DNA of 64,000 nt from Frigoribacterium sp. PhB116 (GTDB lineage: Bacteria > Actinomycetota > Actinomycetes > Actinomycetales > Microbacteriaceae). The position numbers and the translations under genes were made by a program. Below are positions 4,500-46,520 of the stretch, in pieces. The stretch lies in assembly GCF_004364285.1 (NCBI RefSeq), contig NZ_SOBE01000001.1, forward strand, positions 558,001 to 622,000. The letters run 5' to 3'. A model generated the notes under the pieces. It ran no database searches. It had not been told where the DNA came from and worked only from the letters and a program-made list of their open reading frames with translations. Numbering within the stretch: the first letter of the stretch is position 1; each line of letters starts with the position of its first letter.

Positions 4500-4543
4500 T
4501 AGATGGGTGAACGACCTGTCGGGCGGGACTATTCCCGGCCGTG

Positions 4544-5047: not shown

Positions 5048-6289
5048 TCAGGACGAGACGACGTCGGTGGTGGGAGCCACCGGCTGCCCACGATACAGGC
5101 CCTCGAAGACGTTGAGCGTGCGCTCGATGTCGTGCCCCTCGATCATCCGGAGGCTGGCTCGCCGCATCGTGAGGTACTCGTCGTCGGGGGACGTGAGCAC
5201 CCGCGTCAGCTTGTCGGCCAGGTCGGCGCTGTCGCCGGGGCGGAACAACCAGCCGTTGCCGCCGTCGTCGACCAGGTGCGGCAGGGCCATCGCGTCCGCG
5301 ACCACGATCGGCAGACCTGACGCCATCGCCTCGAGGCTCGCGATGCTCTGCAGCTCGGCGATCGACGGCATCGCGAACACGGTGGCGTCGGTGAGGGTGC
5401 GGCGCAGCTCGGCGTCGGAGAGGTAGCCGGCGAACGTGACGCGCCCGGCGAGGCCCAGGTCGACGCTGAGCTGCTGCAGGTGACGCATGAGGTCGCCGCC
5501 GCCGACGATCGTGAGCGTGCTCTCGAGCGTCGGGTCGATCAGCGTCATGGCGCGCAGCAGCACGTCGATCTGCTTCTCGGCGGTGACGCGTCCGACGAAG
5601 ACGATGCGGTTGCCCTCGGGCCGGTCGTCGCGGGCCGTGTAGTTCGACGCCTCGATGCCGCACGAGACCGCGAGCACGCCCTCGACGTCGATCGCCTTCT
5701 CGAGGAACCGGGCCGCCTTGTCGGTCGGCGTCGTCATCGACTCGACGCGGTGGTAGGTGCGGCTCGCGTCGGCCCAGGCCATCTTCACCGCCGTGGCCCG
5801 CAGCGCGTGCGGCAGCCCCGTGTGCTCGAGCAGGTTCTCGGGCATGAAGTGGTTGGTCGCCACGGCCCGGATGCCGAGGCGGTTCGCGACCCGGACCACC
5901 GCGCGGCCGATCACGATGTGCGACTGGATGTGGACGACGTCGGGCTGGATCTGGCGGATGACGCGCTCGGCGTTGGCCTCGGCGCGCCACGGCGTCGCGA
6001 ACCGCAGCCAGTCGTGCAGGGGCCACCGGGTCGAGTAGAGCCGGTGGACCGTCAGGGTCACGCCCGCGTGCTGCTCCAGGAACGTGCCGTGCTTGCGGCT
6101 GGCGGCGGGGGCGAGGACGTGCACGTCGTGGCCCCGGGCCGCCATGCCGACGGCGAGCCGCTCGGCGAAGTTCGCGGCGCCGTTGACGTCGGGCGGGAAC
6201 GTGTCGGCGGCGATCAGCACGGTCAACCTCGGCGCGTCGGCCCAGGCTGCGGTGTCGCTCGGATCGGTCGGTCCGTGGGCGTCGGTCAC
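5048..6289 (-). CDS. GT4-family glycosyltransferase (group 1)
   Basis: This 413-residue retaining GT-B glycosyltransferase has an N-terminal acceptor domain with DTFPPDVNGAANFAERLAVG, as in PimB/PimC-like and sulfolipid/mannosyltransferases. The C-terminal nucleotide-sugar domain contains FVGRVTAEKQIDVLLRA, IVGGGDLMRHL and an E-x7-E motif (AELQSIASLEAMASG). No signal peptide is present, so it should act at the cytoplasmic face of the membrane, probably in glycolipid or cell-envelope synthesis. I placed the start at GTG 6289, where AAGGA lies upstream; the frame stays open for 33 more codons of low-complexity Arg/Pro. It follows the transporter gene with about 100 bases between. Donor and acceptor are not predictable. 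Confidence 0.85.
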   Translation of the reverse strand: MTDAHGPTDPSDTAAWADAPRLTVLIAADTFPPDVNGAANFAERLAVGMAARGHDVHVLAPAASRKHGTFLEQHAGVTLTVHRLYSTRWPLHDWLRFATPWRAEANAERVIRQIQPDVVHIQSHIVIGRAVVRVANRLGIRAVATNHFMPENLLEHTGLPHALRATAVKMAWADASRTYHRVESMTTPTDKAARFLEKAIDVEGVLAVSCGIEASNYTARDDRPEGNRIVFVGRVTAEKQIDVLLRAMTLIDPTLESTLTIVGGGDLMRHLQQLSVDLGLAGRVTFAGYLSDAELRRTLTDATVFAMPSIAELQSIASLEAMASGLPIVVADAMALPHLVDDGGNGWLFRPGDSADLADKLTRVLTSPDDEYLTMRRASLRMIEGHDIERTLNVFEGLYRGQPVAPTTDVVSS

Positions 6290-21118: not shown

Positions 21119-21852
21119 CGGACGGCGTCCGTCCCGGTCGCGGCCGTGCCCGGCGCGGACGCGGCGCCGCTCGCCGTGGCCAGCTCGGACTGCACCTGCT
21201 GCAGGGCGCCGAGGAACCCCTCGGGCGCCTGGGCACCCGATATCCCGTACTTGCCCTCGAGCACGAAGAAGGGCACGCCCGTGATGCCGAACGCCTGCGC
21301 CTGCTGCTGGTCGTCGCGCACGTCGGCGAGGTGCTGGTCGGACTCGAGGGCCGCGACGACCTCGTCCCGGTCGAGGCCTACCTCGGCGGCCAGGTCGCCG
21401 AGGTCCGCGACGCGGCCCACGTGACGGCCCTCGACGAAGTAGGCGGCCAGCAGCCGCTCGGTCATCTCGAGCTGCAGGCCGCGCGCCTTCGCGAAGTGCT
21501 GGAGCTGGTGCGCCTTCACCGTGTTCGTGTGGTGCAGCGACCCGAAGTCGTAGGCGAGCCCGACCTCGGCGGCGATGCCGGTGACCTGGTCGAGCATGCC
21601 GCGCACCTGGTCGGCCGGCATGCCCTTGTGCTCCACGAGGAAGTCGACCTCGTCGCCCTCGAAGTCGACCGGGGTGTCGGGCGACAGCTCGAACGAGTGG
21701 TACTCGACCTCGACCTCGCCGTCGAAGCGCGCCGCCGCGTCCTCGAACTTCCGCTTGCCGATGTAGCACCACGGGCAGGCGATGTCGCTCCAGACGTCGA
21801 CCTTGATCGGGGAACTGGCGAGGGGCGAGGAGGCGGTGGTCGTGTCGGTCAC
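21115..21852 (-). CDS. DsbA-family oxidoreductase (FrnE-like)
   Basis: This 245-residue thioredoxin-fold protein has active site CPWC at residues 26-29 (DVWSDIACPWCYIGKRKFE) followed by the DsbA helical insertion; GITGVPFFVLEGKYGISGAQ carries the cis-Pro. Without a signal peptide it should be cytoplasmic, as FrnE-type proteins are. GTG 21852 overlaps the stop of the DUF559-like gene as GTGA, and its own stop overlaps the next small ORF. The C-terminal 25 residues are Ala/Thr/Gly-rich. It may act on polyketide-like or redox substrates; the true substrate is unknown. Confidence 0.9.
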   Translation of the reverse strand: MTDTTTASSPLASSPIKVDVWSDIACPWCYIGKRKFEDAAARFDGEVEVEYHSFELSPDTPVDFEGDEVDFLVEHKGMPADQVRGMLDQVTGIAAEVGLAYDFGSLHHTNTVKAHQLQHFAKARGLQLEMTERLLAAYFVEGRHVGRVADLGDLAAEVGLDRDEVVAALESDQHLADVRDDQQQAQAFGITGVPFFVLEGKYGISGAQAPEGFLGALQQVQSELATASGAASAPGTAATGTDAVR

Positions 21853-22814
21853 GACAGGGCAAAGTCGGTGCGGGTCCGAGGCATTCCCGGGTCACGCCCC
21901 AGCCTCCAGCGGCGCCGGCCCCTCGCGCGCAGCACGCGGGGCAGCCGCGCCTCGGGGCGCGCGGAGGGCGGCGGGCCGCCGGCGAGCCCCACGAGCCTGT
22001 CCACCGCCTCCTGCACCGCCGCCCACTCCTCGCGGACCTGCCGGTAGCTGACCCTGCACGGCACGAATCCGGCCGCGATCGTCAGGAGGTCCTTTCGGCG
22101 ATCGCGCTCGAAGTGGTCGGCGTGGTGCTCGCGACCGTCCGTCTCGAGCGACGCCGTCCCGTCGACGACGTGGTCCACCGCCTCGCCTCGCGGCCCCACG
22201 ACGACCTGCCGCTCGACGACGCGGCCCGCCAGGCGGAGGCGAGTGCCCGCCGCGCTCTCGAGGATGCTCTGTGCACCCTCGTCGCTCCAGTCGGCCAGCC
22301 CCGACGCGTCCGGTCGATGCCGCCCGAGGACAGCCCGGTCGTCCGCCTCGGTGATCAGCTCGACGGACCGGGCCCAGTCGGCGAGGACGACCGCGTCCTC
22401 GAAGGTGGGCGTCTCGACCACGGCGCGGGCCAGGGCGTCGCGGGCGTCCACGGTCGCGGTGCCGCCCCGATCGACCACGTCTGCTCCGTCCCACACGACG
22501 CGCACGCCGTGGCGGCGCCTCAGGCGCGAGGCGGTGCGGGACACGGAGACGACGACGTCGGGGGGACGGCGATCCCACGCCCACGCGCCCAGGAGGGCGA
22601 GCGCGGCTGCCCCGGTCAGCCTCCCCCCGACCGCGACGGCGACGAACCTCGGGTCGGTGGGCGGCCAGGTCGAGTACCACCCGCGCCTCGGACGCCGGAC
22701 GTCGCGAGCCCGGACCGCCGCCGTGAGGTGCCTGTCGGTGGCGCCGTATCCGACGAGGTCGCGCTTGTGCAGCAGCCCGCCGGCCGCAGCCACCAGTTCT
22801 CCGATCGTCGTCAT
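21849..22814 (-). CDS. AbiEi-like N-terminal plus DUF559 (PD-(D/E)XK-like) domain protein
   Basis: This protein of about 321 residues belongs to a large actinobacterial group of uncertain role. The N terminus (GGLLHKRDLVGYGATDRHL ... RRPRRGWYS) matches the winged-helix start of AbiEi-type antitoxins. The C terminus contains ETDGREHHADHFERDRRKD, followed by CRVSYRQV; this matches the DUF559/Vsr-like nuclease fold, although the first acidic residue of a classical motif is unclear. I chose ATG 22814, with GGGAG directly before it; ATG 22835 is an alternative. No toxin gene is adjacent; the next gene is the coupled DsbA-like oxidoreductase. The upstream gap of over 600 bases is rich in repeats. 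Confidence 0.65.
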   Translation of the reverse strand: MTTIGELVAAAGGLLHKRDLVGYGATDRHLTAAVRARDVRRPRRGWYSTWPPTDPRFVAVAVGGRLTGAAALALLGAWAWDRRPPDVVVSVSRTASRLRRRHGVRVVWDGADVVDRGGTATVDARDALARAVVETPTFEDAVVLADWARSVELITEADDRAVLGRHRPDASGLADWSDEGAQSILESAAGTRLRLAGRVVERQVVVGPRGEAVDHVVDGTASLETDGREHHADHFERDRRKDLLTIAAGFVPCRVSYRQVREEWAAVQEAVDRLVGLAGGPPPSARPEARLPRVLRARGRRRWRLGRDPGMPRTRTDFALS

Positions 22815-22895
22815 CTCCCGAGGATCTACGCCCATGTGCTCGTAGCGGTGGGCTCGAGGGCCAGCGTGTGGACGAGACGACCACCGCTCGACGGC

Positions 22896-22945
22896 GGGGA
22901 GGACGCACCTCCACCGCCACGGGGAGGACGCGCCTCCACCGCCGC
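22896..22945. repeat. Tandem repeat, 2 x 25 bp, each unit a small hairpin
   Basis: Units 22896-22920 and 22921-22945 differ at two bases. Each contains GGAGG-N5-CCTCC, so each can form a hairpin. The array lies about 60-110 bases upstream of the DUF559-like start. Confidence 0.8.
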
Positions 22946-22980
22946 GTGCAGGCGCCCGGTGCCAGGGCCGCCCTGTGCAC

Positions 22981-23066
22981 GTCGGCAACTCCTGAAGAAC
23001 GCGACGCACGGTGCACCGATCTGCGCATCGCAGCCCGTCGGGCGTCCCCGATCAGGAGTTGCCGAC
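22981..23066. repeat. Inverted-repeat element 1 (86 bp)
   Basis: Left arm GTCGGCAACTCCTGA (22981-22995) and right arm TCAGGAGTTGCCGAC (23052-23066) are perfect complements over 15 bp, enclosing 56 bp. The element belongs to a family of four in this window. No flanking target duplication is visible. Confidence 0.9.
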
Positions 23067-23219
23067 CGCGGGCGGCGCATCCGGCAGCCCGGGCCCGGGC
23101 CGGCGAACAGCGGTCGTGCCGGCCCCGGGCCGTACAGGCCCCGGGTCGTGCGAGCCGCGGGACGTGCAGGTCGCGAGCAGGCCGCGAGTACGAGTCGAGG
23201 GCGACGCGGAGCAGCCGGC

Positions 23220-23306
23220 GTCGGCAACTCCTGCGACGAGTGCAGGCAGTCGCACGCGACCCCGCTGCGTGCAACTGCGACGGGGCACCGTGCAGGAGTT
23301 GCCGAC
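23220..23306. repeat. Inverted-repeat element 2 (87 bp)
   Basis: Left arm GTCGGCAACTCCTGC (23220-23234) and right arm GCAGGAGTTGCCGAC (23292-23306) are perfect 15-bp complements around 57 bp. The base inside the core (C/G) differs from element 1 (A/T) but is compensated on both arms. Confidence 0.9.
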
Positions 23307-23428
23307 CGGCGACCCGACCCGGCCCGGCCCCCGAGAGTCGCCCGCGGCCGGTGGCCCGGACAGGCGCGGCGGGCACCGCAGGCGCGGAGGGCCGGCGGCC
23401 CGGCGGCGCCCGGCAGGCCCGCGGGGCG

Positions 23429-24814
23429 CTAGGCGCCGAGCAGCTGCTCCGCGAGGTACCCGCGCAGCGCCGACAGGGGCATGCGCTGCTGCTCCATCGT
23501 GTCGCGCTCGCGGACCGTCACCGCGTCGTCCTCGAGCGAGTCGAAGTCGACCGTGACGCAGAAGGGCGTGCCGATCTCGTCCTGGCGACGGTAGCGACGG
23601 CCGATCGCCCCGGCGTCGTCGAAGTCGATGTTCCAGTACTTGCGGAGGTCCGCGGCGAGGCCGCGCGCCATCGGCGAGAGCTGCTCGTTGCGGCTCAGCG
23701 GCAGGACGGCGACCTTGATCGGCGCCAGGCGGCGGTCGAGCTTCAGCACGGTGCGCTTGTCGACGCCGCCCTTCGCGTTGGGCGCCTCGTCCTCGGTGTA
23801 CGCGTCGACGAGGAACGCCATGAGCGACCGGGTGAGGCCGGCGGCGGGCTCGATGACGTACGGCGTCCAGCGCTCGTTCTTGGCCTGATCGAAGTACGAC
23901 AGGTCCTTGCCGGAGGCGGCGGCGTGCGTCTTGAGGTCGTAGTCGGTGCGGTTCGCGACGCCCTCGAGCTCGCCGAACTCGCCGCCGGCGAACCGGAAAC
24001 GGTACTCGATGTCGACGGTGCGCTTCGAGTAGTGCGAGAGCTTCTCGGGAGCGTGCTCGTACAGGCGGAGGTTCTCGGGGTCGATGCCGAGGTCGACGTA
24101 CCACTGGAAGCGGGCGTCGATCCAGTACTGGTGCCACTCTTCGTCGCTGCCGGGCTCCACGAAGAACTCCATCTCCATCTGCTCGAACTCGCGCGTGCGG
24201 AAGATGAAGTTGCCGGGGGTGATCTCGTTGCGGAAGCTCTTGCCGATCTGGCCGATCCCGAAGGGCGGCTTGATGCGAGAAGACTGCAGGATGTTGTCGA
24301 AGTTGGTGAAGATGCCCTGGGCCGTCTCGGGCCGGAGGTACGCCATGCCCTGCTCGTTGTCGACCGGCCCGAGGAACGTCTTGAGGAGGCCGGAGAAGTT
24401 CTGCGGCTCGGTCCACGATCCGGGCTGCCCGGTCTCGGGGTCGCGCACGTCGGCGAGGCCGTTCTCGGGCGGGTGACCGTGCTTGGCCTCGTACGCCTCG
24501 AGGAGGTGGTCGGCCCGGTAGCGCTTGTGGGTGTGCAGCGACTCGACCAGGGGGTCGCTGAACACCTCGACGTGCCCCGAGGCCTCCCACACCTGGCGCG
24601 GCAGGATGACGGCCGAGTCGAGCCCGACGACGTCGTCGCGGCCCTGCACCATGGTCTGCCACCACTGGCGCTTGATGTTCTCCTTGAGCGCGACGCCGAG
24701 GGGCCCGTAGTCCCAGGCCGACCGGGACCCGCCGTAGATCTCGCCCGACTGGAAGACGAACCCGCGGCGCTTGGCCAGGGCGATGACGGAATCGAGACGG
24801 TTGGGTGCTGCCAC
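23429..24814 (-). CDS. glyS: Glycyl-tRNA synthetase (class II, single-chain)
   Basis: This 461-residue alpha2-type glycine-tRNA ligase shows class II motifs: motif 2 region [24 protein letters not shown] is visible around residues 193-216, and motif 3 is [18 protein letters not shown]. The N terminus [21 protein letters not shown] is typical of the bacterial/eukaryotic-like GlyRS of Actinobacteria. GTG 24814 has GGAG eight bases upstream. No T-box leader was seen. The stop is followed by the repeat-rich gap rather than a simple terminator. Confidence 0.96.
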
Positions 24815-26116: not shown

Positions 26117-27079
26117 ATGACCGACGACCTCGATCTGTTGACCCTCCGCATCGTGCGCGCCGTCGCCGACACAGGCACGGTGACCGCGGCCGCCGCCCAG
26201 CTGGGCTACAGCCAGCCGGCGCTCAGCCAGCACCTACGGCGGGCCGAGGCCCGGGTGGGCCACCCGCTGCTGCTGCGGGCGGGCCGCGGGGTCGAGCTCA
26301 CCGAGGCCGGGCGGCGCCTGGCCGAGCACGCCGTCCACGTGCAGGCCGCCCTCGACGCCGCTCGCCAGGAGCTCGACCACCTCGGCGGCGCGACCTCGGG
26401 ACGGGTGCGGCTCGCGGGCTTCCCCAGCGCCTCCTCGACACTCGTGCCCGACGTGCTGTCGCGGCTGCGCACCAGCCACCCCGGACTGCAGGTCGACTAC
26501 GTCGAGGCGGAGCCCCCCGAGGCGCTGACGCTGCTGCGCGACGGAGCCGTCGACGCCGCGGTGGTGTTCCGCCATGCGGGCCGGGCCGCCACCGATCGCG
26601 AGAGCGTGCCCGAGTCGCTCCGCGAGACCGCGCTGTTCGCCGACCGGACCGTGCTCGTGCTGCCCCGCCCCCACCCGTTCGTCGAGGGCGACGACTTCGG
26701 CACGCTGCACGCCGAGCGCTGGATCGGGGGCTGCCCGCGCTGCCGCGGCCACCTCCTCACCACCTGCGCGGCCGCGGACTTCGCGCCCGAGATCGTCCTC
26801 GAGACCGACAACGCGCTCGCCGTGCTCGGCCTCGTCGCGGCGGGCCTCGGGATCGCGCTGCTGCCGGGCCTGTCGCTGCAGTCGGCGGCGCTCCCCGAGG
26901 AGGTGCGGGTCGTCACCCTGCCCCCGTCCGTCTCGCGGGTGATCGCGGTCGCGCACCGCCGCGGGGCCCGGCGGGTTCCCAGCATCCGCGTCCTCACGGA
27001 GGCGGTGGCCGCGGTGCTGCCGGACCGGCACGGCCTCGAGGCGGTCGGGCCGCAGGGCGCTGTCACAGGCCCGAGCTAG
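26117..27079 (+). CDS. LysR-family transcriptional regulator
   Basis: This 320-residue regulator has an N-terminal winged HTH (residues 1-60, AAAAQLGYSQPALSQHLRRAE) and a C-terminal substrate-binding effector domain. The effector domain contains GGCPRCRGHLLTTC, a cluster of three Cys near residue 205, which could bind metal or sense thiol state. It is transcribed away from the class V aminotransferase with a shared operator. The C-terminal tail after residue 300 is not conserved in the family. The leaderless start is supported by a TATGGT box. Confidence 0.92.
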   Translation: MTDDLDLLTLRIVRAVADTGTVTAAAAQLGYSQPALSQHLRRAEARVGHPLLLRAGRGVELTEAGRRLAEHAVHVQAALDAARQELDHLGGATSGRVRLAGFPSASSTLVPDVLSRLRTSHPGLQVDYVEAEPPEALTLLRDGAVDAAVVFRHAGRAATDRESVPESLRETALFADRTVLVLPRPHPFVEGDDFGTLHAERWIGGCPRCRGHLLTTCAAADFAPEIVLETDNALAVLGLVAAGLGIALLPGLSLQSAALPEEVRVVTLPPSVSRVIAVAHRRGARRVPSIRVLTEAVAAVLPDRHGLEAVGPQGAVTGPS

Positions 27080-30117: not shown

Positions 30118-30183
30118 CGGCGCCGACCGCCGCACCGGCGCGCTCGGTGTCGGCGCCGGCCGTCGCACCGGCGCGCTCCGTGT
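30118..30183. repeat. Tandem repeat, 2 x 33 bp, downstream of the TRIC-type gene
   Basis: Units 30118-30150 and 30151-30183 differ at three bases. They start 32 bases after the stop at 30086, and the second unit runs into the left arm of inverted-repeat element 3; both share the junction GTGTCGGC. Confidence 0.8.
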
Positions 30184-30270
30184 CGGCAACTCCTGACCGG
30201 TGCGTCGGCGCTGCCGCGCGCCAGCGCCGCCCGCACGCGTGACCGGGCACGCGTCAGGAGTTGCCGACAC
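30180..30270. repeat. Inverted-repeat element 3 (91 bp)
   Basis: This element has the longest arms of the family: GTGTCGGCAACTCCTGAC (30180-30197) and its perfect 18-bp complement (30253-30270), enclosing 55 bp. It lies in the convergent gap between the TRIC-type gene and leuA, 80 bases past the leuA stop. Confidence 0.92.
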
Positions 30271-46431: not shown

Positions 46432-46520
46432 GTGTCGACAACTCCTGCGGTGTGCACTGCACCATCGCCGTGACTGCGCTGCCGGGGGCTCCCGGCACAC
46501 CCGTCAGGAGTTGCCGACAC
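46432..46520. repeat. Inverted-repeat element 4 (89 bp)
   Basis: Left arm GTGTCGACAACTCCTG (46432-46447) and right arm GTCAGGAGTTGCCGACAC (46503-46520) pair over 16 positions with one mismatch. The right arm is identical to that of element 3. It lies 80 bases past the stop of the DUF4190-like gene and 62 bases before lepA. Confidence 0.88.

Follow-up and report, generated by a model that had tools for sequence, protein, structure and literature searches.

Four short elements in the genome of Frigoribacterium sp. PhB116 are probably (at roughly 0.6) the paired half-sites of a nuclease encoded beside them, which would bind, cut and mobilise them. They lie in a stretch of 64,000 nucleotides (the window), each consisting of two copies of a 14-mer arm core, GTCGGCAACTCCTG, facing each other. 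Such pairs take lengths that differ in steps of about one helix turn, accompany a gene whose product keeps a set of catalytic-type residues, change their letters with the group to which that gene belongs and have multiplied locally.

Facing arm pairs in the window and the genus

The features of the window are as follows.

Pair 1, 22981..23066, no strand: 86 bp, upstream of the nuclease gene and about 165 bp from it.
Pair 2, 23220..23306, no strand: 87 bp, with the nuclease gene on one side and glyS on the other.
Pair 3, 30182..30268, no strand: 87 bp, between the leuA 3' end and a convergent Gly_transporter-domain gene.
Pair 4, 46434..46518, no strand: 85 bp, between a DUF4190-domain gene and lepA, with one mismatch in the left arm.
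Empty place, 4516..4539, no strand: arm pairs stand here in G015, G002, G010, G001, G009 and G004.
Partner gene, 21849..22814, minus strand: 321 amino acids, with a predicted AbiEi-like winged helix and Vsr/EDxHD-like (DUF559/MTES_1575) nuclease domain.

An earlier note on this DNA had described a family of four elements with inverted ends, and the family is real and larger than the window shows. With up to two mismatches, the 14-mer matches the window nine times, whereas 100 shuffles gave 0.91 matches on average and never more than 4, the ninth match (33257) being an isolated arm with two mismatches. Seven of the eight paired arms are exact and the exception, at 46434, is off by one base, in keeping with the three perfect pairs and the single mismatch reported before. 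Pairs 1 and 2 have the positions given in that note, and pairs 3 and 4 those listed above; the spacers, previously put at 55-57 bp, measure 58, 59, 59 and 57 bp (pairs 1-4) between 14-bp arms, the former figure reflecting slightly longer arms. The distances of 80-450 bases downstream of a minus-strand gene also held, the near edges lying 81-362 bp beyond the 3' ends of glyS, leuA and the DUF4190-domain gene, with pairs 1 and 2 in addition upstream of the minus-strand gene that starts at 22814. The outcome named there as refuting, only four copies and no conservation in relatives, was found for the genome and not for the relatives. At up to one mismatch the 3.37-Mb genome (8 contigs) holds just the eight paired arms and one stray, all four pairs being confined to 24 kb, whereas the pattern GGCAACTCCTG-N45-75-CAGGAGTTGCC is present in 16/16 Frigoribacterium genomes.

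A collection search with this pattern returned 28 matching stretches, every one from Frigoribacterium (family Microbacteriaceae), and among 299 Microbacteriaceae genomes (85 genera) there were seven matches, all in Frigoribacterium, and none in the 292 others. The exact arm therefore looks genus-specific. Pairs are mostly intergenic (133 of 154, against 2586 of 10400 random intervals, by simple in-house gene calls); eight of the other 21 overlap predicted genes partially and 13 lie inside them, six of these being 3'-end pairs of the partner gene. The number of pairs varies at orthologous gaps, with none at window 4516-4539 and pairs in the six relatives listed. The lepA gap carries both arms in 8/16 genomes (including G012, G015, G002, G009, G004, G005 and G006), one arm in G008 and none in 7/16. 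Pair 1 has a counterpart in G012 (L088_14011) with a spacer identity of 80%, and pair 3 has homologous pairs in G012 and G015; the leuA array of G005 includes a run of N.

Searching the window with Rfam, two tRNAs alone reached gathering scores. ARAGORN called a tRNA-Tyr at 26155-26242, overlapping the 5' end of a cysteine-desulfurase-like ORF and without an Rfam report. No dif-like motif was found in the window by one consensus scan, and pairs 1 and 2 had no DNA match among phage records.

The partner gene and its cognate arms

The statement that no transposase gene lies nearby overlooked the gene for a predicted AbiEi-wHTH/Vsr-like nuclease next to pair 1. Relatives at least 60% identical number 29 copies over the 16 genus genomes. 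Sixteen, one per genome, sit in the order glyS-gene-dsbA, and the other 13 occupy two further places (9 and 4 copies, grouped by flank similarity). A facing pair lies within 700 bp upstream of all 29 copies, and a full second pair overlaps the 3' end of the gene in 18, with a single arm there in two more. The 3'-end arms typically encode VGNS and QELP. At three loci of other genera (L176, L178 and L186) the 3' pair is likewise embedded in the coding end, with peptides such as VGNSG, and arm letters therefore double as protein sequence. No introns or inteins were seen around the partner gene. At one locus of G010 (L085:16336-18024, the same gene in L044), the partner frame runs without a stop into a dsbA-like gene, giving 563 amino acids and a possible natural fusion.

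Two further paralog groups (L094-L109 and L110-L126) were detected at E 1e-5, B in 16/16 genomes and C in 10/16. At the 27 paralog loci (16 B and 11 C) no facing pair scored as the A arm type and three lone arms were found. In readings made without a shuffle control, several B and C paralogs have their own upstream variant pairs, without a clear 3' pair, the arms being GTCGGCRACTCAGG at some B loci and CGTGGCAAGTGA at some C loci, and the B arm of L104/L105, GTCGGCAACTCCGG, lies one base from the A core. A shuffled test requiring four arms gave one weak match in the 27.

Six residues of the partner protein (E186, Q203, D214, E224, H231 and D238) are at least 98% conserved in 82 homologs and do not vary at all in 21 diverse ones; the acidic/His spacing is that of the EDxHD motif. 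The structure model has a pLDDT of 61, falling below 50 in the middle, with fairly confident parts in an N-terminal winged-helix-like region and an alpha/beta domain at 184-277. Foldseek related the nuclease domain to NGO0050 (3hrl) and the catalytic domain of I-Bth0305I (3r3p) at probability 0.93 with E above 0.1; by E-value two mitoribosomal proteins rank higher, with rmsd over 20, and AbiEi (6y8q) was matched at a probability of only about 0.1. Pfam cut-offs were passed by relatives for AbiEi_4 (L110) and DUF559 (L194, L198 and L200), AbiEi_4 being below the cut-off in L200, L194 and L236. The window protein itself has a Pfam match below cut-off and a PADLOC match to AbiEi at E 0.0019; a sequence search of solved structures returned two matches, neither meaningful. 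The catalytic-type constellation and the modelled fold appear Vsr/EDxHD-like, the fold by Foldseek probability with E above 0.1, and nuclease activity is predicted.

Homologs at E 1e-20 or better occur in 27/110 Microbacteriaceae genomes. Outside the genus, upstream and 3' pairs with the same arm were found at 19/26 loci compared with 10/520 shuffled trials, the remaining seven failing the four-arm test, and the arms differ by genus (GTCGGAAACTC, AAATGCAGGAA, CATATGCAGGA, GTTCATAAAAC and CCGTTTTCAGG). A phylum-wide profile search placed homologs at the E 1e-20 level in 21/396 genomes. After two of 30 loci with ambiguous gene orientation had been dropped, 15/28 passed the four-arm test against 8/560 shuffled and 13/28 failed, two of the 28 being the window genome's own, neither of which passed; the passes include loci of other families in the order and class. 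Counted over whole genomes, GGAAAYTCAGGA has 7-54 matches in 11 of the 12 that carry the gene (0-1 for the reversed control), and in six genomes without an E 1e-20 homolog it has none in five and three in one.

The glyS-gene-dsbA place is shared by 13/26 non-genus loci (12 with both neighbours in the locus and G098 with glyS in a longer stretch), and for this reason the gene looks mainly vertically inherited. A plasmid- or phage-borne gene was considered and rejected, there being no match among plasmid and phage records.

Crowding, copying and dispersal of the pairs

Of 152 arms in the sequence retrieved around the gene from five other genera, 141 form facing pairs of 79-81, 90-92, 102 or 112 bp, reaching up to 60 kb from the gene in crowds of up to 23 pairs. 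Over the whole genome of G051, 15/45 arms are over 60 kb away from the gene, and in G006 21/22 arms are within 80 kb of a gene copy. Element clusters also occur at extra gene copies, as in G006 at 3.20 Mb. In 133 between-genome comparisons with similar flanks, arms were 94% identical (82-100), spacers 79% (58-100) and flanks 77%; arms are kept and spacers drift alongside flanks, a contrast partly built in because elements are recognised by their arms. Captured or hypervariable (CRISPR-like) spacers, suggested by the lepA site, were rejected in that spacers and flanks diverge alike.

Spacer identity is 85% or more in 27 pairs of elements from the same genome, all less than 450 bp apart and in the same orientation; local duplication would also produce such copies. 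Flank identity of these close copies (41/54 flanks, the 13 omitted being still similar as parts of larger tandem units) is about 0.6 over the first four bases and falls to background (0.3) by about 9-12 bp, and the close copies inspected by eye had no visible target duplication. Among distant elements of G051, the central 40 bp is related in 28/84 comparisons where 0.8 would be expected; related elements stand in either orientation at distances of up to 56 kb, their flanks nearly at background, and whole elements have therefore dispersed, clearly in this one genus only. For distant spacers in G044, G062 and G098, similarity hardly exceeds chance or does not exceed it. When occupied and empty sites were compared, as proposed in the earlier note, the lepA gap gave no readable clean insertion, and gene insertion site 3 revealed a stand-alone gene with low-complexity borders whose ends are not exactly at the arms.

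Close copies that are all local and of single orientation, and an upstream pair at each of the 29 genus copies, would also be expected if the pairs were operators only. In this rather unlikely account, an AbiEi-like protein bound to the arm pairs represses its own gene, with a loop joining the 5' pair to the 3' one, and the remaining pairs are titration sites or a small regulon, with no mobility and with copies made by ordinary tandem duplication. AbiEi proteins are autoregulatory: upstream of the protein's own gene, AbiEi monomers bind 23-bp inverted repeats that stand 3 bp apart, and the gap between the Rv2827c repeats is 13 bp (PMC7319586). Operators alone would, however, leave unexplained the conserved nuclease residues, the gene-centred crowds, the arm-bounded copies with unrelated flanks and the related distant spacers of G051.

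It is improbable that the pairs are chromosome-organising sites of the terminus region, matS-like in purpose, clustering near the point opposite dnaA. In six single-contig genomes of five genera (G006, G015, G036, G062, G094 and G098, the G094 figure coming from a rounded length), the distance between the glyS-linked gene and the dnaA antipode is indeed about 51-263 kb (1.5-7%). In a seventh single-contig genome, G101, however, the best homolog (51%, with no glyS in the locus) has about 246 kb between it and dnaA itself, and additional copies of the gene at other places have clusters around them as well; the antipode position is taken as incidental on these two grounds, and the locus may simply be glyS-linked.

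That the elements are an ordinary MITE or REPIN, mobilised by a known transposase encoded at another place in the genome, is very improbable. Size, layout and extragenic placement would suit it, whereas the arms flank a different protein family in all 29 genus copies and change along with the protein across genera. The earlier comparison with REPINs, MITEs or stem-loops survives as an analogy with REPINs, namely extragenic inverted doublets that multiply and have one partner gene. MITEs, classical REPINs and RNA stem-loops do not fit, because the arm is non-palindromic, its variants are mostly unmatched, there are four pairs and the protein is unlike HUH/Y1 or any known transposase; unlike a MITE, the close copies have no visible target duplication and the partner is not DDE-looking.

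Geometry, proposed mechanism and related systems

The arm profile was built from 260 non-identical arms (80 genus stretches fetched, 40 of them used with the window), and reads GTCGGCAACTCCTG followed by five bases and a TG(C) box about 17 bp in. With 12-bp arms, the outer lengths of facing pairs fall at 71-72 (15), 80-84 (87) and 92-96 bp (20), with the gaps between groups empty, one outlying pair at 54 and a scatter of lengths of 117 or more; divergent neighbouring arms peak at 32 (5) and 42 (7). In 154 Frigoribacterium pairs with 14-bp arms, within a search limited to about 71-116 bp, lengths were 75-76 (15), 84-88 (109) and 96-98 bp (30) and nothing else, with a best period of 11.2 bp. Frigoribacterium lengths near 75, 86 and 97 bp, and 80, 91 and 102 bp in other genera, thus rise in steps of about one helix turn, which suggests that proteins sit on a single face of the double helix.

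RNA stem-loops, serving as 3' mRNA stabilisers or terminators, are barely credible and were rejected: since the arms are inverted each of the four elements can fold as a hairpin, the elements lie downstream of genes and the inner 14 bp has a slight excess of partner-arm matches over permuted partners (z 1.92, reached by 57/2000 permutations), but 209/222 core variant positions in Frigoribacterium are changed in one arm only, the core z is 0.52, five other genera permuted within genomes give 1.61 for the core and -0.08 for the inner part, a terminator-like T run is absent from 22700-23500 (the sole stretch scanned) and the arm letters are tied to the protein family. An apparent covariation in the five genera when pooled (z 3-6) vanished upon within-genome permutation. 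Paired arms without covariation favour duplex protein sites over RNA hairpins.

For the paired half-sites preferred here, each arm would be bound by one monomer through an AbiEi-like winged helix. With two monomers on the same face of the DNA, the Vsr/EDxHD-like nuclease domains would meet over the spacer, making a natural paired-half-site nuclease, and nicking or cutting there would drive copying of the unit into nearby DNA. The gene at glyS-dsbA would be the autonomous partner and the pairs non-autonomous, a logic that would be that of a REPtron (a domesticated nuclease with its own repeats) assembled from unrelated parts. Persistence at one locus suggests a host benefit or stable selfishness. 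Chances are about even that there is an Actinobacteria-wide class of mainly vertical selfish or domesticated nucleases, with an AbiEi-type reader and a Vsr-like cutter, each maintaining, multiplying and co-evolving with private facing half-site pairs around its gene in an independent REPIN/RAYT-style reinvention.

As described in PMC3116915, SBW25 REPINs are extragenic inverted doublets with 71 bp between GI-doublet 16-mer starts and a less conserved spacer, and in PMC8266576 REPIN repeats are said to have co-evolved with their protein. The pairs here resemble the REPIN/RAYT system in being extragenic inverted doublets with conserved ends and a variable spacer. Unlike it, their partner is an AbiEi/DUF559-like wHTH with a PD-(D/E)XK-type domain rather than HUH/Y1, and their lengths are helix-turn-quantised. 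Each REP has its own (imperfect) palindrome whereas GTCGGCAACTCCTG is not self-complementary, the REPIN doublet is kept as a paired-end hairpin whereas significant core covariation is absent here, and REPIN copy number is high whereas G000 has four pairs crowded around the gene. The system is REPtron-like in working and outside REPIN membership, because its cognate gene is not of the HUH type, its arm is not a palindromic REP and its paired ends lack the covariation of a hairpin.

The predicted N-terminal winged helix would be shared with AbiEi antitoxins (AbiEi and Rv2827c), whose repeat geometry resembles the arm pairs on a smaller scale (PMC7319586). Unlike these antitoxins, the partner has a predicted C-terminal nuclease domain in place of the antitoxin domain, with dispersed and 3' sites, and no toxin partner was seen beside the gene, its neighbours being glyS and a DSBA-domain gene with no AbiEii/DUF1814. 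The EDxHD/Vsr-like homing endonuclease I-Bth0305I appears similar in the modelled nuclease-domain fold and acidic/His residue spacing; unlike it, the gene is without a visible intron or intein, chromosomal and mainly vertical, and has its own flanking pairs of paired facing half-sites. DUF559/REase_MTES_1575 proteins are linked by Pfam matches among relatives, MTES_1575 being named a Vsr-family REase in PMC3710099. No literature pairing DUF559 with repeats was found, and dispersed cognate pairs of DUF559/MTES_1575-type nucleases were not found in the open full-text literature, most subscription papers lying outside that scope. Promoter repeats of AbiEi antitoxins are already known (PMC7319586).

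What makes bacteria retain RAYTs, transposase relatives inherited vertically as single copies along with repeats of their own, is an unsettled matter. Another system of the same logic, whose protein chemistry is unrelated and whose sites are helically phased on duplex DNA, would allow one to ask which features are general. It also gives a functional lead for AbiEi_4 and DUF559/MTES_1575 fusion proteins, whose site letters can be read from each genome, and dozens of protein-arm pairs would let a recognition code be worked out.

A minor observation concerns the arm layout itself. At 6197-6276 of locus L058 in G009, three arms with the second box follow one another in the same direction, spaced 34 bp apart, as though half-elements could multiply as well.
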